Origin: a virus
Direction: 5' to 3' (one strand)
Length of the DNA: 29,178 nt
Virus record (IMG/VR): IMGVR_UViG_3300032263_000002
Span: 1-29,178 of that record
Positions 123 to 12,903 of the stretch are shown here, one piece after another. The notes under the pieces are model-generated. The model saw only the letters and a list, made by a program, of their open reading frames with translations. It was not told the origin of the DNA and searched no databases. How positions within the stretch are numbered: position 1 is the first letter of the stretch; every line of letters starts with the position of its first letter. A program made the translations under genes and the position numbers.

Positions 123-1079
123 CTATTCCTTCCAAATTTTTTTGCAAATCGCAGCGTACCCGTGGGTATCAGCGTCTCCACAGACCCGGGCACTCCCATA
201 GACCTCAGCGTCTCCGTAGACCCGGGCACCCCCATAGACCTCAGCGTACCCGTAAATCTCAGCATGACCGTAGACCTCAGCGTCCCCATAGACCCGGGAA
301 TCACCGCATACCTTAGCGTCTCCGTAGACCCGGGCATCACCGGAGACCTCTGCGGTGTCAGAGATCTTTGCACGGCCAAAGACCTGTGCATGATCAAAGA
401 CCTGTGCATTGTCAAAGACCTCACCGCTACCCCAAACCTGAGCGTACCCGTAGACCTGTGCATTTTCAAAGACCTCACCGCTACCCCAAATCTGAGCGTA
501 CCCGTAGACCTGAGCGTATCCGTAGACCCGGGCATCACCGGAGACCTCTGCGGTGTCAGAGATCTTTGCACGGTCAAAGACCTTAGCGCTACCGTAGATC
601 TCGGCGCTACCGTAGACTGTGGCGTCTTCGTAGACACTGGCATCCTCATAGACCTGAGCGCTACCGAGTACCTCGGCGACACCGTAGACTCTGGCGTGAT
701 CGTAGACTCTGGTGTTCCCATAGATCTGGGCGTATCCGTAGACTCTGGCGTCTCCGTAGACTCTGGCATAATCGTAGATCTCAGCGTGATCGTAGACTCT
801 GGCGTAATCGTAGATCTCAGCGTGACCGTAGACTCTAGCCCTACCGTAGACCTCGCCACCCCAGCAGACTCTAACGAAATCGTAGACTCTGGCGTCTCCG
901 TAGACTCTGGCGTCATTGTAGACCCAACAGTCGCCCCCCTGACTAAGATTATCAAGTCCCTGCACCCATCCACCTAGATCGCCTTCTCGGACGTCCGAGA
1001 AGGCTCTGAGCGCTCTAATGCGATATAGAGTCTGACCGCTGGGGAGGGTCATTGTTTCTGATGTTAGTTCATATTTCAT
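123..1079 (-). CDS. YdcK-like left-handed beta-helix hexapeptide-repeat protein (copy 1, longest)
   Basis: 318 residues. Residues 1-53 form a conserved cap (MKYELT, then GDLGGWVQG and LSQ-x-GDCWVY) like the N-terminus of E. coli YdcK. From about 54 to 310 there are roughly 43 hexapeptides of the form G/D-x-A-x-V-Y/F, the signature of a left-handed beta-helix. The short C-terminus is not repetitive (KKIWKE). The start ATG overlaps the stop of the upstream copy as ATGA and has a GAGGGAG site, so translation is probably coupled. It carries a 54-bp (one-coil) tandem duplication and a 65-bp dispersed repeat. The structure is clear; the biochemical function is unknown. The family is common in phages, often annotated as transferase-like or polymer-forming without proof. 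Confidence 0.85.
   Translation of the reverse strand: MKYELTSETMTLPSGQTLYRIRALRAFSDVREGDLGGWVQGLDNLSQGGDCWVYNDARVYGDARVYDFVRVCWGGEVYGRARVYGHAEIYDYARVYDHAEIYDYARVYGDARVYGYAQIYGNTRVYDHARVYGVAEVLGSAQVYEDASVYEDATVYGSAEIYGSAKVFDRAKISDTAEVSGDARVYGYAQVYGYAQIWGSGEVFENAQVYGYAQVWGSGEVFDNAQVFDHAQVFGRAKISDTAEVSGDARVYGDAKVCGDSRVYGDAEVYGHAEIYGYAEVYGGARVYGDAEVYGSARVCGDADTHGYAAICKKIWKE
321..583. repeat. internal duplications in beta-helix copy 1 (54-bp tandem and 65-bp dispersed)
   Basis: Positions 401-454 and 455-508 are a tandem pair of 54-bp units with two mismatches, encoding YGYAQ(I/V)WGSGEVF(E/D)NAQV twice. 54 bp is 18 residues, exactly one three-sided coil of a left-handed beta-helix. Positions 321-385 and 519-583 share a 65-bp segment with about one mismatch, 198 bp (11 hexapeptides) apart. 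All offsets are multiples of 18 bp, so the reading frame and the helix are preserved. Confidence 0.9.
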
Positions 1080-1681
1080 ATTTTTTCTCCCTCATAAACG
1101 CTCCCACAGACCTTGGCACTCCCACTGATCGTGGTGTCCCCATAGACTCTGGCGTCTCCGTAGATCTCAGCGCACCCGTAGACTCTGGCGTACCCGAAGA
1201 CTCTGGCGTCTCCGTAGACCTGGGCGTCCTCATAGACCTGGGCGTGACCGTAGACTCTAGCATACTCGTAGACTCTAGCGTAATCGTAGACCTGGGCGTC
1301 TCCGTAGATCTCAGCGCACCCGTAGACTCTGGCGTATCCGTAGACTCTGGCGTATCCGTAGACCTGGGCGTCCTCATAGACCTGGGTGTGATCGTAGACT
1401 CTAGCATACTCGTAGACTCTAGCGTAATCGTAGACCTTGGCGTCTCCGTAGACCAGAGCATAACCAAAGATCTGAGCATTGTGATAGACTCTGGCGTCCT
1501 CATAGACACAGGCATCACCATAGACCCAACAATCACCATGCTGGCTAAGATTATAAACACCCTGCACCCACCCACCTAGGTCGCCCATTCGGACATCGGA
1601 GAAGGCTCTGAGCGCTCTAATGCGATATAGAATCTGACCGCTGGGGAGGGTCATTGTTTTTGATGTCAACTCGTATTTCAT
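1076..1681 (-). CDS. YdcK-like beta-helix hexapeptide-repeat protein (copy 2)
   Basis: 201 residues: the same 53-residue MKYELTS cap as copy 1, then about 23 hexapeptides such as YGYARV, YEDAQV and YGDARV, and a tail ending YEGEKI. The middle is a 144-bp near-perfect tandem duplication (eight hexapeptides). The start at 1681 overlaps the stop of copy 3 by four bases (ATGA), and its weak GAGG ribosome site lies inside a small hairpin (1684-1699), so translation may depend on ribosomes arriving from copy 3. Function unknown. Confidence 0.83.
   Translation of the reverse strand: MKYELTSKTMTLPSGQILYRIRALRAFSDVRMGDLGGWVQGVYNLSQHGDCWVYGDACVYEDARVYHNAQIFGYALVYGDAKVYDYARVYEYARVYDHTQVYEDAQVYGYARVYGYARVYGCAEIYGDAQVYDYARVYEYARVYGHAQVYEDAQVYGDARVFGYARVYGCAEIYGDARVYGDTTISGSAKVCGSVYEGEKI
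1151..1438. repeat. 144-bp tandem duplication in beta-helix copy 2
   Basis: Positions 1151-1294 and 1295-1438 align without gaps and with about six mismatches. The unit is 144 bp, eight hexapeptides. It keeps the frame but is not a whole number of 54-bp coils. Confidence 0.9.
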
Positions 1682-2250
1682 TCAGACACCTCGGTGTCTA
1701 AAACTACACCATAGACTCTGGCATTGCCGTAGACTTGGGAGTCCCCGTAGACACACGCCTCGCCAAAGACCCAGCAATCCCCATAGACTTCAGACGCACA
1801 AAAGACTCTGGCCTCATCACGTATCCGAGCGTTGCCATAGGCTTGAGCGGTACCACAAATCTGGGCGTTGTAATAGACTCTGGCGTTTTCGTAGACTCTG
1901 GCTTTATCATAGACCTGAGCGTGGTAATAGACTCTGGCGTTGTCATAGACTCTGGCAAGGTCATAGATCTGAGCGTCTCCATAGATCTGAGCGTCTCCAT
2001 AGATCTGAGCGTTGTCATAGATCTGAGCGTTGTCATAGACTCTGGCGTTGTCATAGACTCTGGCATTGTCATAGACTTTGCCGTCGTCGTATATCCAACA
2101 GTCATCCTCCTGACTAAGATTATCGAACCCCTGCACCCACCCACCTAGGTCGCCCATTCGGACATCGGAGAAGGCTCTGAGCGCTCTAATGCGATACAGA
2201 GTCTGGCCGCTGGGTAAGGTCATTGTTTTTGATGTTAGCTCATACTTCAT
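1678..2250 (-). CDS. YdcK-like beta-helix hexapeptide-repeat protein (copy 3)
   Basis: 190 residues from the ATG at 2250, which follows an AGGAG site and gives the MKYELTS start shared with its paralogues. The frame stays open upstream to 2625, but that part runs antisense-like through copy 4 and has no relation to the family. The cap (1-53) is followed by about 20 hexapeptides rich in YDNARV and YDNAQI, then a region with Cys and Trp (CASEVYGDCWVFGEACVYG) and an unrelated tail, DTEVSE. The repeats are encoded by almost identical 18-bp units at about 1960-2080. Its stop overlaps the start of copy 2. Function unknown. Confidence 0.82.
   Translation of the reverse strand: MKYELTSKTMTLPSGQTLYRIRALRAFSDVRMGDLGGWVQGFDNLSQEDDCWIYDDGKVYDNARVYDNARVYDNAQIYDNAQIYGDAQIYGDAQIYDLARVYDNARVYYHAQVYDKARVYENARVYYNAQICGTAQAYGNARIRDEARVFCASEVYGDCWVFGEACVYGDSQVYGNARVYGVVLDTEVSE
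1684..1699 (-). promoter_or_regulatory. hairpin covering the ribosome site of beta-helix copy 2
   Basis: The two arms 1684-1690 and 1693-1699 are complementary (agacacc / ggtgtct). The weak GAGG that would serve copy 2 (start 1681) lies in this stem. Because the stop of copy 3 also overlaps this start, ribosomes finishing copy 3 could melt the hairpin. The pairing is visible; the coupling is inferred. Confidence 0.4.
1955..2080. repeat. 18-bp minisatellite in beta-helix copy 3
   Basis: Consecutive 18-bp units differ by one to three bases. Pairs of identical units are visible (gatctgagcgtctccata twice, then gatctgagcgttgtcata twice, followed by gactctggcgttgtcata variants). Each unit encodes one hexapeptide on the minus strand. 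The array is coding sequence, not a CRISPR: there are no unique spacers. Confidence 0.85.
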
Positions 2251-2260
2251 ATTTTTTCTC

Positions 2261-2770
2261 CTAAAGACCGCGGGAAACCCTGCCAGTGATTTGAGCGTCT
2301 CCGCAGACTCTGTCATTGTCATAGACATGGGTGTCTCCGTAGACTTTGTCGTATCCGCAGACTTCAGCGCATCCGTAGACTTTGACGCAACCGTAGACTT
2401 CAGCATATCCGTAGACCTCGGCATGACCGTAGACTCTAGAGTTTCCACGGACTTTGGAGTATCCACGGACCTTGGAGAACCCGTAGACTCTAGAGTTTCC
2501 GTAGATCTCAGAGTTTCCGTAGATACCGGCATCGCCAAAGATCCAAGAGTTACCGAAGACCCGAGCATTCTCAAAGACGCATGCTCTATCAAAGACACAA
2601 GCACAATCATCGATCCAGCAAGCACCGTACTGGCTAAGATTGTGATATCCCTCTACCCATCCGCCGAGAGCACCTTCTTTGACGTTACTGAAGGACTGGA
2701 GCGCTCTAATGCGATATAGAGTCTGACCGCTGGGGAGGGTCCTAATATCATTTGTTAGTTCATATTTCAT
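2261..2770 (-). CDS. YdcK-like beta-helix hexapeptide-repeat protein (copy 4, divergent cap)
   Basis: 169 residues. The cap differs from copies 1-3 and 6 (TNDIRTL, SFSNVKEGALGGWVEGYHN) and closely matches copy 5, so copies 4 and 5 form a second subfamily. The first coils are Cys-rich (CWIDDCACVFDRACVF), then about 17 hexapeptides use N/G-x-S as well as x-x-A. The start ATG at 2770 overlaps the stop of copy 5 as ATGA, with a GGAG site inside the end of copy 5. Ten bases separate its stop from the copy 3 start. Function unknown. Confidence 0.82.
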   Translation of the reverse strand: MKYELTNDIRTLPSGQTLYRIRALQSFSNVKEGALGGWVEGYHNLSQYGACWIDDCACVFDRACVFENARVFGNSWIFGDAGIYGNSEIYGNSRVYGFSKVRGYSKVRGNSRVYGHAEVYGYAEVYGCVKVYGCAEVCGYDKVYGDTHVYDNDRVCGDAQITGRVSRGL

Positions 2771-3300
2771 TTTCTTTCTCCTTCAAAAACACAACCACAA
2801 ACGTTGGCGTTCCCATAGATCTGGGCGTATCCGTAGATCTGGGCGTAACCGAAGATCCCAGCGTGCCCATAGACCTCGGCGTATTCATAGACTCTGGTGT
2901 AACCGAAGACCCCAGCGTGGTCGTAGACATCGGCGCTACCGTAGACATCGGCATGTCCGTAGATTCTGGCGTCTCCGAAGACTCTGGCGTGTCCGTAGAC
3001 TTTGGCGTCTCCGTAGACTCTGGCATTGGCATAGACTTGAGCGTCTCCGTAGACACAAGCGTCTCCGTGGACCCAAGCATTGTGAGAGATTCTAGCGTTG
3101 TCAAAGACACAGGCATCACCAAAGACGCAAGCACTGTCATCGACCCAGCAATTGCCATAATGACTTAGATTGTGATATCCCTCTACCCACCCACCGAGAG
3201 CACCTTCTTTGATGGTACCAAAGGCTCGAAGCGCTTGGATGCGATACAAAGTCACTCCGTTGGATAGGGTCCTAATATCATTTGTTAATTTATACTTCAC
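2767..3300 (-). CDS. YdcK-like beta-helix hexapeptide-repeat protein (copy 5, GTG start)
   Basis: 177 residues starting at a GTG at 3300, placed by alignment with the paralogue caps and by an AGGAGG a few bases upstream. The cap (KYKLTNDIRTLSNGVTLYRI, then GALGGWVEGYHNLSHYGNCW) belongs to the same subfamily as copy 4. About 20 hexapeptides follow (YGDACV, YANARV, YGHARV), ending in VCGCVFEGERK. It overlaps the end of copy 6 by 11 bases and the start of copy 4 by four. Function unknown. Confidence 0.82.
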   Translation of the reverse strand: MKYKLTNDIRTLSNGVTLYRIQALRAFGTIKEGALGGWVEGYHNLSHYGNCWVDDSACVFGDACVFDNARISHNAWVHGDACVYGDAQVYANARVYGDAKVYGHARVFGDARIYGHADVYGSADVYDHAGVFGYTRVYEYAEVYGHAGIFGYAQIYGYAQIYGNANVCGCVFEGERK

Positions 3301-3886
3301 GGTACCTCCTCAGTACTCTACACACTAGAGCACAGCTTTTAGGGTCGATACTGATATTACCTAGCAGAGCACGTCGCAAATCTCTGCTACGATATGACCA
3401 CACGTCATCTACATATGGCGCATAGTATGTCTCATTGTCTATCATTATTTTGATTAATTTCTCCCCTCGTCGCATAACCAACTCGGCACTAACTACGCGT
3501 TCGCAGCCATAGACATTGGCGTCTCCATAGACATGGGCGTCTCCATAGACACGGGCGTTATCCCAAATCTTAGCGTTATCCCAGATCTCGGCGTTATCGT
3601 AGACTCTGGCGTTGTCATAGACTCCGGCGTCTCCATAGACATTGGCGTTGCCAAAGACTCTGGCGCTATCGTAGACTCTGGCGCTATCATAGACCTCGGC
3701 ATTATCATAGACTTTGGCGTTGTCATATATCCAGCAATCGCCCTCCTGACTAAGATTATCAAGTCCCTGCACCCACCCACCTAGATCGCCTTCTCGGACG
3801 TCCGAGAAGGTCCGGAGCGCTCTAATGCGATATAGAGTCTGACCGCTGGGGAGGGTCATTGTTTTTGATGTTAGTTCATATTTCAT
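3290..3886 (-). CDS. YdcK-like beta-helix protein with distinct C-terminal domain (copy 6)
   Basis: 198 residues. The cap (1-53) is nearly identical to that of copy 1 at DNA level. It is followed by only about 13 hexapeptides (residues 52-128, e.g. YDNAEV, WDNAKI, YGDANV). From about 129 the repeats stop and a 70-residue basic domain follows (RRGEKLIKIMIDNETYYAP, then SYRSRDLRRALLG and VCRVLRRYREV) that none of the other copies has. The start at 3886 has an AGGAG site and overlaps the preceding leucine-rich gene by 11 bases. It is the first of the six beta-helix genes to be transcribed. The C-terminal domain is not recognised; function unknown. Confidence 0.83.
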   Translation of the reverse strand: MKYELTSKTMTLPSGQTLYRIRALRTFSDVREGDLGGWVQGLDNLSQEGDCWIYDNAKVYDNAEVYDSARVYDSARVFGNANVYGDAGVYDNARVYDNAEIWDNAKIWDNARVYGDAHVYGDANVYGCERVVSAELVMRRGEKLIKIMIDNETYYAPYVDDVWSYRSRDLRRALLGNISIDPKSCALVCRVLRRYREV

Positions 3887-4514
3887 TTCTTTCTCCTATT
3901 TGGGATCCGGGCGGACAAAATGGCGATCGCCCACAGACCTTGAGGGGCCCTAAGAAACGCTTGACAGAGACCCCAAATGCGTAGAAATTGCCTCCCACCG
4001 TAAGGCCCCTGGGTATCTCAGTAATCCCTGTGTGAGAGATATTCAAATCGCAACCCACTGTGAGATTAGTCGGCAATTCCTCTATCTTAGAATAATGTAG
4101 ATGTAGCTTACCTTCTACGGTGAGGTTGTCAGGCAAACGCCTGATAGACGTCCCTCTTAGATTTAGATTGCCATTGTATGCAATTAGGTCCCTGGTCACT
4201 CCATCTCCAAATACACCTTGGCCTAGGATCTCAAGATGATGTCTCACCCATAACGGCAAGCGCCTGCGGCAGGCTGCCTCCGCCTCCTCTGGATCGTACC
4301 AATCTGGGAGTAGATCTTGGTCTGTCTTGAATTTCCACGCGCTGAACGGCCGCGAGAAGTCTAGGTCGGGCGGAGTGATCTCGACCCGAACGAACTGCGG
4401 TGTGAATGAGTCGTCTCGGAGGCCATGCTCGAATAGAATTATATCATGGTGATCACTAACTCTGGAAAATAGGGCCTGATGTCTTGTCACGATGAAACTT
4501 GCTGGTTTACACAT
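3876..4514 (-). CDS. MC-x-PASF domain / leucine-rich-repeat protein (copy D)
   Basis: 212 residues. Residues 1-110 are a conserved domain: MCKPASFIVTR, FVRVEITPP, TDQDLLPDWYDPEEAEA, then GQGVFGDGVTRDLIAYNG. Residues 115-194 are four 20-residue leucine-rich repeats of the form G-x-L-x-L-x-x-T-x-I-x-x-L-P-x-N-L-T-V-x, similar in length to YopM-type repeats. The last 18 residues (CPPGSQIGERNEI at the end) are unique. It starts at ATG 4514 after a GGGAG site, overlapping copy C by eight bases. I recall similar N-terminal domains in other phage proteins fused to different repeats, but know no function. It is probably cytoplasmic; no signal peptide is seen. Confidence 0.82.
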   Translation of the reverse strand: MCKPASFIVTRHQALFSRVSDHHDIILFEHGLRDDSFTPQFVRVEITPPDLDFSRPFSAWKFKTDQDLLPDWYDPEEAEAACRRRLPLWVRHHLEILGQGVFGDGVTRDLIAYNGNLNLRGTSIRRLPDNLTVEGKLHLHYSKIEELPTNLTVGCDLNISHTGITEIPRGLTVGGNFYAFGVSVKRFLGPLKVCGRSPFCPPGSQIGERNEI

Positions 4515-5181
4515 TTTTGCTCCCTAATTCTGCCATGTATGACTCAATACTGTTCTGGAGATGTTCCCATAGGATCGAATCATGAGTGTGTACCCTCCCT
4601 CGTACCAATGATGGACCCAGATAGCGCTTGATAGAGACTCCCCACGCGTTCAGATCACCTCCCACCTTAAGATTCTCGGGGAACTCATCAATCTTTGTGT
4701 AATAGATGTTCAGATTGCGACCTACTGTGAGGTCGTTCGGCAGCTTCTCTATCTTAGTATACCCTAGATCCAAATCACCCTCTACTGTCAGGCCATCCGG
4801 CAGGCGCCTGATACGTGTCCATCTCAGACCTAGGTTCCCGTCATACGCGATCAGATCCTTAGTCAGTCCGTCGCCGAACACGCCTTGACCGACGACCTTC
4901 AGATGATGCTCTGCCCATGCTGGCAGCTGCCTCCTGCATGCTGCCTCGGCCTCGCCTCGGCTATACCAATCTGGTAGTAGATCTTGGTCCGTCCTAAATT
5001 CCCATTCATCGAAAGGCAGCAAGAAGTCCATCCTGGGTGGAGTGACCTCGACGCGAACGAATGCCGGATTAAGGGAGTCGTCTCGGATGTCGTGTTCGGC
5101 TAGAATTATGTCATGGTGGTCACTGACCCGGGAATATAATACGTCGTGTCTTGTCACGATGAAACTTGCTGGTTCACACAT
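4507..5181 (-). CDS. MC-x-PASF domain / leucine-rich-repeat protein (copy C)
   Basis: 224 residues, the longest of the four. The N-terminal domain (MCEPASFIVTRHDVLYSR, FVRVEVTPP, TDQDLLPDWYSRGEAEAACR) is followed by repeats such as LDLGYTKIEKLPNDLTVGRN and LNIYYTKIDEFPENLKVGGD. It ends with a longer helical-looking tail (SILWEHLQNSIESYMAELG). The ATG at 5181 has a GGAGG site seven bases upstream and overlaps copy B by eight bases. Function unknown; the solenoid surface suggests a binding role, which is inference. Confidence 0.82.
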   Translation of the reverse strand: MCEPASFIVTRHDVLYSRVSDHHDIILAEHDIRDDSLNPAFVRVEVTPPRMDFLLPFDEWEFRTDQDLLPDWYSRGEAEAACRRQLPAWAEHHLKVVGQGVFGDGLTKDLIAYDGNLGLRWTRIRRLPDGLTVEGDLDLGYTKIEKLPNDLTVGRNLNIYYTKIDEFPENLKVGGDLNAWGVSIKRYLGPSLVRGRVHTHDSILWEHLQNSIESYMAELGSKNV

Positions 5182-5806
5182 TTTTTTGCCTCCATAAGTC
5201 TAGGTCATTAGTGAATACGTTTCCTCGTATCACCGCCGAGTCAGAGACGCGCTTGATAGAAATTCCACTTGCGAAGAGACTACCTCCTACCTTAAGACCT
5301 TCGGGAATCTCGGTAACCCATGTGTAAGAGATATTTAAAGTGTATCCTACTGTGAGGTTATTTGGTAGCTTCTTTATCCTAGAATATTCTAGATATAGAT
5401 CACCCTCTATGATGAGGTCATCTGGCAGATATTTGATATTTGTTTCACACAGGTCTAGACTACCATTGTATGCAATTAGATCCCTGGTCACTCCATCTCC
5501 AAATACACCTTGACCAATGATTTTCAAATGCCATCTCGCCCATAACGGCAAGCGCCTGCGGCAGGCTGCCTCAGCCTCCTCTGGATCGTACCAATCTGGG
5601 AGTAGGTCTTGGTCCGTCCGGAATCTCCACTCATGGAACGGCCGAGAGAAGTCTCTGTCTGGCGGAGTGACCTCGACGCGGACGAATTGTGGGGTAAAAA
5701 AGTCGTCCCTAAAATAATTATCGGCTATGATTACGTCGTGACTATCACTGGTCCTGGAAAATAATACATTGTCTTTTGTTAATATGAAACTTGCTGGATT
5801 ACACAT
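5174..5806 (-). CDS. MC-x-PASF domain / leucine-rich-repeat protein (copy B)
   Basis: 210 residues. It opens MCNPASFILTKDNVLFSRTS and keeps the conserved FVRVEVTPP, TDQDLLPDWYDPEEAEAACR and GQGVFGDGVTRDLIAYNGS blocks. Four 20-residue leucine-rich units follow (e.g. LCETNIKYLPDDLIIEGD). The end is VIRGNVFTNDLDLWRQKNV, which aligns with the tail of copy C. The start at 5806 has a GGGAGG site and lies one base after the stop of copy A. Stretches of DNA are almost identical to copy D (around 5460-5620 versus 4160-4320), which suggests recent duplication or gene conversion. Function unknown. Confidence 0.82.
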   Translation of the reverse strand: MCNPASFILTKDNVLFSRTSDSHDVIIADNYFRDDFFTPQFVRVEVTPPDRDFSRPFHEWRFRTDQDLLPDWYDPEEAEAACRRRLPLWARWHLKIIGQGVFGDGVTRDLIAYNGSLDLCETNIKYLPDDLIIEGDLYLEYSRIKKLPNNLTVGYTLNISYTWVTEIPEGLKVGGSLFASGISIKRVSDSAVIRGNVFTNDLDLWRQKNV

Positions 5807-5807
5807 T

Positions 5808-6377
5808 TTACCTCCCTGAATTCGTCATGTAGATGCCGAATGCACAGATACCACCCCTCACCGTAAGGTCCCTGGGTATCTCAGTAATCCCTGTGTAAGA
5901 GATACTCAACTCACCACCCACTGTGAGATTGTTCGGCAACTTCTCTATCCTAGTCCTTGTCAAGATCAAATGTCCCTCTACCGTTAGGCCGTCCGGTAGA
6001 ATTCTGATGTCCGCCCCTCTCAGATCTAGGTCGCCGTTGTATGCGACTAGGCCCTTAGTCACTCCATCTCCAAACACGCCTTGACCGACAACCTTAAGGT
6101 GGTGTCTTGCCCAAGCTGACAGGCGTGCTCTGCATGCTGCCTCGGCCTCGCCCCGGCTATACCAATCTGGGATTAGATCTTGGTCCGTGATATATCTCCA
6201 CTCGCTGAACGGCCGCGAGAAGTCTCGCCTGGGTGGAGTGATCTCGACCCGAACGAATGCCGGATTAAGGGAGTCGTCCCTTAGGTTATTCTCTTCTAGG
6301 ATTACCTCGTGACTGTCACTGAATTTAGAAAATAGTACACTGTCCTTTGTTACGACGAAACTTGCTGGATTACACAT
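5808..6377 (-). CDS. MC-x-PASF domain / leucine-rich-repeat protein (copy A, first gene of the leftward operon)
   Basis: 189 residues from the ATG at 6377, which has a perfect AGGAGG with seven-base spacing and begins MCNPASFVVTKDSVLFSK like its paralogues. An open 36-codon extension to 6485 runs through the promoter and is rejected. The domain order is the same as in copies B-D, with three full leucine-rich units plus a short one. The protein stops at AFGIYMTNSGR, so the 20-35-residue tail of the other copies is missing. The predicted promoter puts its transcription start almost at the ribosome site, giving a very short leader. Function unknown. Confidence 0.83.
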   Translation of the reverse strand: MCNPASFVVTKDSVLFSKFSDSHEVILEENNLRDDSLNPAFVRVEITPPRRDFSRPFSEWRYITDQDLIPDWYSRGEAEAACRARLSAWARHHLKVVGQGVFGDGVTKGLVAYNGDLDLRGADIRILPDGLTVEGHLILTRTRIEKLPNNLTVGGELSISYTGITEIPRDLTVRGGICAFGIYMTNSGR

Positions 6378-6396: not shown

Positions 6397-6440
6397 AGTA
6401 TACAGTTAGTTACCGAAGTGTCAATTCTTTTTTTAAAAAA
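6397..6440 (-). promoter_or_regulatory. sigma70-like promoter for the leftward operon, with UP-like tract
   Basis: Read on the minus strand: TTGACA at 6424-6419, a 16-base spacer, then TATACT at 6402-6397. A run of A and T (6425-6440) lies directly upstream of the -35, as in UP elements. Transcription would start near 6390, at the AGGAGG of the first gene. Confidence 0.75.
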
Positions 6441-6446
6441 GTGTAT

Positions 6447-6480
6447 GTGTGACTTATGTTGTGCTAGGTGTGACTTATGT
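6447..6480 (-). promoter_or_regulatory. pair of 13-bp direct repeats, possible activator or repressor sites
   Basis: gtgtgacttatgt occurs exactly at 6447-6459 and 6468-6480, 21 bp apart (two helical turns, same face of DNA). Centres lie near -63 and -84 of the predicted leftward start, positions typical of activator binding. The binding protein is unknown. Confidence 0.5.
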
Positions 6481-6497
6481 GACATATTAAATACCGA

Positions 6498-6870
6498 ATT
6501 CCTTAATGTTTTTTGATGATCCAGATGAATTCTTCAATGATATCAAGTATTTAACCACATGATCCAGATGACGATTTTTATGTGGTACACCGAATCCTCA
6601 ATGATTCCGCGAGGTTAACCAGATGATCCAGATGATCCACATGTTTTCTTATATATATATATATATATAATAATAACTACTATTTTATATAAATTACTAT
6701 AAAGTTTACAAATCATCTGGATCATCTGGATCATGTGGTAAAGACATCGTAATCATTGAGGAATTTGGTGTGCCAGATACTGGATTTCGTCGGAAATCAT
6801 CTGGTACATGTGGTTAAATACTTGATATCATTGAAGAAATCATCTGGATCATGTGGATCATTAAGGAAAT
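6498..6870. repeat. large imperfect inverted repeat with six 13-bp GATC iterons and AT-rich core
   Basis: This is most of the gene-free gap 6378-6933. Arm matches include a perfect 32-bp inverted pair (6530-6561 with 6807-6838), 17 bp (6623-6639 with 6718-6734) and 11 bp (6596-6606 with 6751-6761), all centred near 6680-6684. The exact 13-mer ATGATCCAGATGA occurs at 6516, 6559 and 6623, and in reverse orientation at 6713, 6722 and 6840: three per arm. At least eight GATC sites fall in the arms. The centre (about 6645-6710) is almost pure A/T with an (AT)n run. It may be a replication origin, a partition site or a shared operator for the divergent promoters. Confidence 0.85.
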
Positions 6871-6933: not shown

Positions 6934-7158
6934 ATGAAAATATTGCTCACACTCTTCCTCGCGGGTTGCGGCTCCTTTTTGGGCCCTATGGTCACAGAGA
7001 CATGTCTGGACGCTTGTGCGCTCTCCGCTGCCCCCTCGGTAGAGACGTGCTATCGAGCATGCGACCTATTACCGCTCGGGCCTGCTAACGGGTGCGACGT
7101 ATTCTGCGATGACATCATGATCGAGGCCATGGAGGCATGCGATGCGAAGTGCCGTTAG
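6934..7158 (+). CDS. small Cys-rich lipoprotein with four C-x3-C motifs
   Basis: 74 residues. The ATG has AGGAGG four bases upstream. MKILLTLFLAGC is a very short signal with an L-A-G-C lipobox, so the mature protein should begin at the lipidated Cys12 and sit on a membrane. Eight further cysteines form four C-x3-C pairs (CLDAC, CYRAC, CDVFC, CDAKC), spaced like helix-turn-helix disulphide proteins. It is the first rightward gene and overlaps the next by 17 bases. Possible roles are an outer spanin, superinfection exclusion or another envelope function; nothing in the sequence decides. No membrane-anchored inner-spanin partner is visible beside it. Confidence 0.75.
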   Translation: MKILLTLFLAGCGSFLGPMVTETCLDACALSAAPSVETCYRACDLLPLGPANGCDVFCDDIMIEAMEACDAKCR

Positions 7159-7447
7159 CCGATTGAAGCCCGATGTCGCTAAGCGAATTTGGGCACTCAC
7201 TCGCGAGGGCACAATGTCTACTGAGGAGATCTTGGTACGACTAGATCAATATAGAACGTATTATATACATTTATGGGAGCATCTCCTCGAGTCGGGTAAC
7301 CCTTCGGATACTGAGATGTGCTTGACGATGACCAAGGCGATCACGTGTCTATTCGAAGACCTCCGGAATGAGAGGGGCCGTGCTGATGTGATCATCGAGC
7401 GCACGATCATGCAATACCCTCTGGTGCTTGAGGCGCTCGAAGCGTGA
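7142..7447 (+). CDS. putative terminase small subunit
   Basis: 101 residues, with a GGAGG six bases before ATG 7142, overlapping the lipoprotein end. It is mostly helical-looking and charged, with no family motif that I recognise. The assignment rests on position: its stop overlaps the GTG start of the large terminase as GTGA, the usual place for a DNA-recognising small subunit. The N-terminal stretch (KPDVAKRIWALTREGTMSTE) could be a short helix-turn-helix. It could equally be an unrelated small protein. Confidence 0.45.
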   Translation: MRSAVSRLKPDVAKRIWALTREGTMSTEEILVRLDQYRTYYIHLWEHLLESGNPSDTEMCLTMTKAITCLFEDLRNERGRADVIIERTIMQYPLVLEALEA

Positions 7448-8865
7448 AATTAGTCTCAAATATTTACCGTCGGCTAGACCTAGACGGCAAGCCTATCATT
7501 GGCCCCCCATATCCTAAGCAGCTGGAAGTGTTGCGTGAACTATTTCGTGAGCCATATAATGGCGAGTTGCGCAAGCTCCATTTGTCTTGCGGGTGGGGCT
7601 TCGGGAAGACGTATCTCGGCATTGACATAGCACAGGCTTTGTTGGATTTGGGACCAAATAGCAATGGGTGGTTCATTGAACCGACAGCCCAAATGATGTA
7701 TGGTCACTTCTTGGGCACCTGGCAACGCACAGTGCCGCCTGAGTTGTATACGCACAACAAGGAGCGTCGCACTATCACGTGGCTGCGGACAGGCTCCACC
7801 CTTCGGTACGAGCATCGCAATACCACTGGGTCGCTTCAACATACACTGGACAAATTCCAGGGTCACAATATCGCATGGTATATAGATGACGAGGCAGCTA
7901 CCGGATGTCACCCAGAGGTACATCGATGTCTAAGAGGACGTGTTAGACAACCGCAAGCGCCTCTGTACGCCATTGTGACGCTCTCTACGCCTCGTATGGG
8001 TCCCTACGCTGATCTTATCAACGAGAGCGGCTCAGTGGTCATCAGGGGCCGTACAGAGGATAATCCATTTTTATCGCCTCAAATCGTGGCGGATATGAGA
8101 GCCTCCATGTCGAGAGCGCAAGCAGCTCGCGATATGGATGGAGAACTCATAGCTCTTGAAGACCAAATATGGGACATGGTCGACCTAGAGCACCCGTGGC
8201 CTGTTGGGAATGTGGACTATAATCATCCTCGGTTTAACAGTAATCTACCATGGTATCTAGGGATAGACATTGGGTCCTCTACCGGGGCTTATGTCGTGGT
8301 GCAACCAGTGCCCGATGGCATTAGGCGAGGTGAGCCTAGGTGGGTCATTGTTGCCGACTATTGCCCGCAGGCTAATGCTGACGTACGTCGGGCTTTTCGG
8401 CGTCTGAGAGAAGAATTTGGCGTCCCTGCAGGTGTGGTAGCCGGTGCTGACATCAACACAAGGGCCTCTACGGACGGCGCAACTGTGTCATACTTTGTAC
8501 GCAAGATATTTGGCAACGTGCGAATCATGATCGCGGATGAACATGTGACTCCCAGACATACCGCATACGACCTTACTAATTATTTGTTCAGGTCGGCGGA
8601 TGGTACCCGTAGATTGACAGTGGCCTCCAGTTTGGTCGACGGTGATAGGCCGGGTGTGTTAGACAAAGACTCCAAACGTGGCATAGTAGAGATGGTCCAA
8701 CAAGACATTTGGCCACCGATTGAAGAAGTTCGACAAGGGCAATACTTGCCCAAAGGACAAAAAATACGTGTGTCTCATATAAGGGATGCACTTCTCAATG
8801 TGGCCTCCGAGGCCATTAGGCCTCCCACATGGGCAGGCGACCCAGATGATAAACCATGGCACTAA
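7444..8865 (+). CDS. terL: terminase large subunit (packaging ATPase / nuclease)
   Basis: 473 residues, GTG start overlapping the previous stop (GTGA). This motor cuts concatemeric DNA and pumps it into the prohead through the portal. Walker A is GWGFGKT (residues 50-56, K55). Walker B is YIDDEA (146-151, E150 catalytic). The coupling motif is VTLSTPR (178-184). The C-terminal RNase H-like nuclease shows YLGIDIGS (D275), AGADINT (D337) and HIRDALLN (D448) as candidate metal ligands. Length is normal for the family. It stands directly before the portal block, as is usual. Confidence 0.93.
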   Translation: MKLVSNIYRRLDLDGKPIIGPPYPKQLEVLRELFREPYNGELRKLHLSCGWGFGKTYLGIDIAQALLDLGPNSNGWFIEPTAQMMYGHFLGTWQRTVPPELYTHNKERRTITWLRTGSTLRYEHRNTTGSLQHTLDKFQGHNIAWYIDDEAATGCHPEVHRCLRGRVRQPQAPLYAIVTLSTPRMGPYADLINESGSVVIRGRTEDNPFLSPQIVADMRASMSRAQAARDMDGELIALEDQIWDMVDLEHPWPVGNVDYNHPRFNSNLPWYLGIDIGSSTGAYVVVQPVPDGIRRGEPRWVIVADYCPQANADVRRAFRRLREEFGVPAGVVAGADINTRASTDGATVSYFVRKIFGNVRIMIADEHVTPRHTAYDLTNYLFRSADGTRRLTVASSLVDGDRPGVLDKDSKRGIVEMVQQDIWPPIEEVRQGQYLPKGQKIRVSHIRDALLNVASEAIRPPTWAGDPDDKPWH

Positions 8866-12456: not shown

Positions 12457-12816
12457 ATGGCATTTTCAGCAGCTTTGAGCACGAATCAGCAGGGTGTTAC
12501 CGCGATTGCCGGTATTGATTATTTTGGCATTTTCACGATTACTCCTGATAGTAGTTGTGACGCCACGGGCGAGGCCGTCGACCTGACAGACTATTTTTCG
12601 ACTATCGACGCGGTTATCCCGTGCGGAGTAAGCGCCATCGCGGCCGCAGGGTATGTACCAGCGTTCTTCTTCACCCCAGGCGCTGCTCATACGTCCAGTA
12701 GCTTGAAGGTAGTATTTATGAATCAAGATGGGGACGCAGGTGCCTTGGAGCCCGCCTCCGCAGTTGACCTCTCCTCCTATACCTTTCAAGTGATGGTCTA
12801 TGGAAAAATGAAATAA
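12457..12816 (+). CDS. capsid accessory (decoration-like) protein
   Basis: 119 residues, ATG after AGGAG. It is rich in beta-forming and small residues (e.g. GIDYFGIFTITPDSS, TFQVMVYGKMK), has three cysteines and carries no signal peptide. It lies 11 bases after the capsid gene, where head-decoration or stabilising proteins usually stand. No family is recognised; the call is from position and composition. Confidence 0.5.
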   Translation: MAFSAALSTNQQGVTAIAGIDYFGIFTITPDSSCDATGEAVDLTDYFSTIDAVIPCGVSAIAAAGYVPAFFFTPGAAHTSSSLKVVFMNQDGDAGALEPASAVDLSSYTFQVMVYGKMK

Positions 12817-12823
12817 TTTGCGA

Positions 12824-12843
12824 AACGGGGCTCCGGTCCCGTT
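12824..12843 (+). terminator. GC-rich hairpin after the capsid block, weak terminator or processing site
   Basis: aacggg (12824-12829) pairs with cccgtt (12838-12843), with an eight-base loop, eight bases after the accessory protein stop. There is no T-run, so termination is likely partial at most. It could protect the abundant capsid mRNA from 3' decay. Confidence 0.3.
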
Positions 12844-12903
12844 ATTCGGGTGTTGTGGCCCGAGTCTGATGAGCAGCTAGCGGGTCCGAGGAGGGACGAG
12901 CGC

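Follow-up and report, generated by a model that had tools for sequence, protein, structure and literature searches.

The intergenic region at positions 6498-6870 of a 29,178-base linear virus fragment from IMG/VR (a partial contig, referred to in its whole length as the window) is most likely an enlarged replication origin of the iteron-dyad type, because the same sequence word and layout adjoin DNA-unwinding genes in five unrelated viruses. A preliminary description of the region had placed an origin, a partition site and a divergent operator side by side. Comparison with other phages strongly favours the origin, whereas the operator and the centromere keep lower probabilities.

Architecture of the dyad

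The dyad is real and very unlikely to be a product of chance. The gapped arm-to-arm score was 204, compared with a mean of 47 and a maximum of 69 among shuffled sequences (n = 500), which confirmed the imperfect inverted repeat of about 370 bp described previously. A scan with 250-bp arms gave 187 at the dyad and 87 at the best place in approximately 1 Mb of other viral DNA. The outer arms (6516-6571/6797-6852) are 95% complementary across 56 nt, including the 32 identical base pairs noted earlier, and the inner arms (6595-6669/6688-6762) are 75% complementary. Coordinates of the features are given in Table 1.

The 13-mer ATGATCCAGATGA occurs in three exact copies per arm, as first reported, and these six are the only copies in the window, where the word could have been scattered; with up to two mismatches there are 12 matches versus approximately one expected. 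The underlying unit was refined to an iteron with a 9-bp period, CCA(G/C)ATGNN. Thirteen copies of CCA(G/C)ATG lie within 6521-6856, six in the left arm and seven as reverse complements in the right arm, every one oriented toward the centre, and the other 28.8 kb of the window hold only five. Between the arms the AT-rich core seen in the preliminary description was verified, and it contains the lowest-GC windows of the record. Each arm also carries one perfect match to the IHF consensus, suggestive only of candidate IHF sites. Outside the centre, the columns of the arm-to-arm alignment that belong to iterons were conserved in 43 of 50 cases and the other columns in 80 of 113 (p = 0.048), a weak sign of selection.

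Table 1. Features of the dyad and of its flanks (window coordinates).
Feature	Position	Strand	Remarks
First leftward gene	5808..6377	-	Leucine-rich-repeat protein, MCNPASF start, AGGAGG site; transcribed away from dyad
Leftward sigma-70-like promoter	6397..6424	-	TTGACA-N16-TATACT; outside dyad
Whole dyad region, candidate replication origin	6498..6870	.	Inverted-repeat score 204; DNA folding z-score -18
Iteron CCAGATG, left outer cluster	6521..6527	+	Start 6521
Perfect IHF-consensus match WATCAANNNNTTR, left arm	6541..6553	+	Consensus match; candidate function only
Iteron pair CCACATGAT CCAGATG, left middle cluster	6555..6570	+	9-bp period; starts 6555, 6564
Iteron triplet CCAGATGAT CCAGATGAT CCACATG, left inner cluster	6619..6643	+	9-bp period; starts 6619, 6628, 6637; architecture score 31.5
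AT-rich centre, candidate DNA-unwinding element	6644..6712	.	69 bp, 9% GC, (TA)n run
Inverted iteron triplet, right inner cluster	6714..6738	-	Reverse-complement starts 6714, 6723, 6732
Inverted iteron pair, right middle cluster	6798..6813	-	Reverse-complement starts 6798, 6807
Mirror copy of IHF-consensus match, right arm	6815..6827	-	Consensus match
Inverted iteron pair, right outer cluster	6841..6856	-	Reverse-complement starts 6841, 6850
All-helical protein, 101 aa	7142..7447	+	Directly ahead of TerL; usual small-terminase position
Large terminase (TerL)	7444..8865	+	Weak PF03237 match, 19.5 bits versus cut-off 22; Walker-like motifs

Recurrence of the iteron word in other phages

Searches by homology returned no relatives that share the dyad. 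The terminase, the capsid protein and the first left gene had no homolog in IMG/VR, the portal and terminase had none in named phages, and a DNA similarity search with the dyad region gave no meaningful match in phages or plasmids. Several candidates were rejected: relatives of the leucine-rich-repeat family (distant loci only, without a dyad), matches to a single-strand 17-mer pattern (mostly one-sided repeats, apparently 9-bp coding repeats), short array-piece matches in named Acinetobacter phages (located within a primase gene), two sparse matches among 388 genomes of one phylum (not convincing as arrays), and four of the five stretches found with a first gapped pattern (without a dense array).

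The whole of IMG/VR was then searched using the pattern CCAGATGNNCCAGATGN{55,85}CATCTGG, a tandem pair followed by an inverted copy 55-85 bp further on. Nine stretches were found, against approximately 0.5 expected by chance according to a rough estimate made by hand rather than computed. Dense two-sided CCAGATG arrays of 4-11 copies each were present in five of the nine (L132, L135, L139, L141, and L142); the remaining four (L136-L138 and L140) were dropped for want of a dense array. In all five phages the array is placed behind a gene for a DUF5906 or VapE-like SF3-like helicase and precedes the small and large terminase genes, the flanking helicase and terminase genes being co-directional, and the tandem CCAGATG pair is absent from the rest of their records. 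The five phages are unrelated, with loci of 49% to 66% GC; the terminase of L132 has no similarity to that of the window, and the small terminases near the arrays match different families or none. The arm symmetry named in the preliminary description recurs together with the iteron word, in the same geometry. Adjoining the CCAGATG array of L139 there is a second, nested inverted array with a 9-bp period (4434-4530; TGCAACATG-like word).

These phages also bear on methylation. At least eight GATC sites had been claimed for the region, and exactly eight were counted in 6498-6870; across the whole window GATC is not enriched (146 versus 166 expected). The dinucleotide NN between copies is AT in the window and TT, GT, GC or GA in the relatives, so that GATC is not conserved and arises in this phage simply from the AT at that place, which weakened the proposed sensitivity to Dam-type methylation.

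A non-functional relic, i.e., an ancient inverted duplication that serves no function, or else an RNA hairpin or terminator, would account for arms that are homologous over most of their length and for the strong predicted fold. This explanation is very improbable given the better conservation of the iteron columns between the arms, the recurrence of the word in unrelated phages, and the lack of any Rfam match over the dyad at the gathering score. The Rfam matches that did appear scored far under it and were set aside as chance matches to a long hairpin.

Position of iteron arrays at helicase loci

The 7-mer architecture scan (2.08 Mb) gave matches only in the window, in the five CCAGATG phages and at helicase loci, with none among approximately 125 loci fetched for other reasons. 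A motif-free scan was performed on 87 helicase loci, 80 from IMG/VR and seven from named phages. All ten places scoring at least 26.5 were downstream of the helicase match, nine of them within 700 bp (binomial approximately 5e-10), a set that again includes the L132 and L135 contigs as well as the near-duplicates L152 and L153. The words of the arrays differ: AGTCCTAGC was found in L189, ACCCTGACC in L203 and L228, and TACCCAGAC in L162, where the array is 2.7 kb from the helicase. Strong 9-bp inverted arrays were also observed approximately 3 kb downstream of the DUF5906 helicase gene in L273 (4766-4898) and L274 (8509-8622, reverse strand).

As an independent check, 60 helicase loci were taken from genomes that belong to a different phylum. 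Four of the nine non-duplicate places scoring at least 24.5 sit 0-60 bp past the helicase stop (approximately 2e-6); these are L279, L293, L316, and L287, with L289 being a near-duplicate. Array centres were AT-richer than their own locus in all 19 arrays (p = 2e-6). In the motif-free scan, coding 9-bp repeats and low-complexity DNA can score as high as 26.5, the maximum of the controls, which had been picked for the 17-mer pattern and hence are rich in 9-bp coding repeats. Single weak places are therefore unsafe, and the evidence lies in the positional enrichment. Most DUF5906 helicase loci, those of the named phages YuA, Pam3, and CN1 included, showed no detectable array, and the design is accordingly not universal even among helicase loci.

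The distance from the helicase stop to the array was 5-556 bp (the range both in the nine tabulated loci and in the five CCAGATG phages), whereas that from the array to the terminase varied from overlap up to 1.7 kb, and no recognisable terminase was found near the array of L194. The short helicase spacing, set against the variable terminase spacing, counts toward an origin.

Genomic setting and alternative functions

As described previously, the dyad divides the gene blocks of the window, and this holds for every gene on either side: all left genes run leftward and all right genes rightward. The left block consists of accessory genes that form tandem paralog arrays at 123-6377 (-): six encode YdcK-type beta-solenoid proteins, and four encode leucine-rich-repeat proteins starting MC(N/K/E)PASF. 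The first left gene most likely starts at 6377 and not at 6485. Directly upstream of the leftward promoter, a 16-bp word occurs in two direct copies (TATGTGTGACTTATGT / TAGGTGTGACTTATGT; 6444-6480, 21 bp apart), possibly activator or repressor sites. The right block contains genes for the large terminase, the portal (by position), a capsid-like protein, tail sheath, tape measure, and baseplate. The 101-aa protein ahead of the large terminase is all-helical in a single-sequence model (pLDDT 78); family and fold searches with it returned no match, and by its position it is a small-terminase candidate. A Type II hammerhead ribozyme (Rfam RF02276, 56 bits, E 3e-9) lies at 12818-12882 (+) among the structural genes, right behind the gene at 12457-12816. 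Cumulative GC skew, which had been put forward as a check for an origin, does turn at approximately 6500 but is uninformative, because the coding strand changes at the same position.

Lying between divergent operons, the dyad could also be an operator, on whose symmetric sites a phage repressor or activator would jointly control the leftward accessory and the rightward late operons. The leftward promoter is strong, and candidate -10/-35 sequences abut the right edge of the dyad. Operator sites would overlap the promoters they control; those candidate sequences adjoin the dyad, and the leftward promoter lies outside it. Against an operator, that promoter is more than 90 bp from the first iteron, and an extremely AT-rich centre would be unnecessary. 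Since the genes flanking the array are co-directional in the five other phages, divergent control is not the common theme, and we regard an operator as unlikely.

A role in packaging initiation would fit the position of the dyad just upstream of the candidate small terminase and TerL. At a pac site the small terminase would bind repeats flanking the cut site, and in phage P1 these are TGATCA/G hexamers with Dam sites on both sides of the cleavage region (PMC10028697). The window likewise has GATC-containing repeats on either side of a centre near terminase genes, its hexamer being TGATCC and not TGATCA/G (PMC10028697), and all five phages with the exact CCAGATG word carry terminase genes near the array, a point that also counts against an origin. 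The GATC of the window is nevertheless not conserved in the relatives, and P1 pac is inside the pacA gene whereas the window region is intergenic, the candidate gene starting only at 7142. The layout follows helicase genes, with the array hugging the helicase stop and the terminase sometimes far off or not recognisable nearby, and the small terminases concerned match different families or none. We consider a pac site improbable.

The iterons and the symmetry would also suit a parS-like partition centromere of a phage-plasmid. No ParA/ParB-like gene was found among the window proteins searched (the contig being partial), and the comparative link runs to helicase genes; we consider a centromere extremely improbable.

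Further observations speak against the favoured origin as well. Searches of the 29-kb contig revealed no replication gene (helicase, primase or other), and the gene next to the dyad on its left codes for a leucine-rich-repeat protein and points away. The initiator may be encoded elsewhere, the contig being partial.

Proposed mode of initiation and comparison with known systems

In the proposed mechanism, a phage-encoded SF3-type initiator helicase, its gene lying off this contig, would bind the iterons of each arm. The opposed orientation of the two iteron sets would lead to head-to-head loading of a pair of helicase rings, one at each flank of the AT-rich centre, which would melt and allow bidirectional replication to begin. 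Initiator boxes beside or flanking an AT-rich tract are also present in HSV oriS/oriL and in the SV40 origin, an analogy only, as the viruses and words are unrelated.

In PICIs the origin lies immediately 3' of the rep initiator gene and is made up of an AT-rich region with an iteron set on each side; this segment drives plasmid replication (PMC6092414). The SaPI Rep protein binds the iterons, apparently as two hexamers (PMC7581432). Like this pri-rep-ori arrangement (PMC6092414, PMC7581432), the window has two sets of short iterons around an AT-rich stretch that may melt. It differs in having 13 copies with a 9-bp period over 337 bp in strict dyad symmetry, in belonging to a tailed myovirus and not to a satellite, and in the dyad not being beside a rep gene on its contig. 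A position immediately 3' of an initiator helicase gene was found in L132, L135, L139, L141, and L142 and not in the window; as the contig has no helicase gene, we do not assign the dyad to the PICI-type origin family and propose only that it works in a similar way.

The plasmid pRN1 needs a 100-bp stem-loop that starts 54 bp past its primase-SF3 helicase gene; the authors of that study noted a similar stem-loop in phage BIP-1 (PMC4234260). Inverted arms, a centre of tens of base pairs that is unpaired or AT-rich, and the association with SF3 helicase replicons are shared with the window (PMC4234260), whose region is several times longer, whereas the published description of pRN1 is of a single stem-loop rather than of tandem iterons. 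The NrS-1 polymerase provides a structural precedent: its helicase domain is similar to SF3 helicases and assembles into hexameric rings (PMC7102993).

Implications

It is conceivable, though we hold this only tentatively and at somewhat less than even chances, that a single origin design is common to many tailed phages whose SF3-like helicases are of the DUF5906/VapE kind: iterons with a 9-bp period on both sides of an AT-rich centre and pointing inward, with a word that changes per lineage and with CCAGATG recurring in phages that have unrelated terminases. In the present phage the design would have grown to 13 iterons and been relocated from the initiator gene to the edge of the late operon. 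For most metagenomic phages no replication origin is known, and a recognisable design of inward-facing 9-bp iterons around an AT-rich centre, usually right behind an SF3-like helicase gene, would allow origins to be called from sequence alone.
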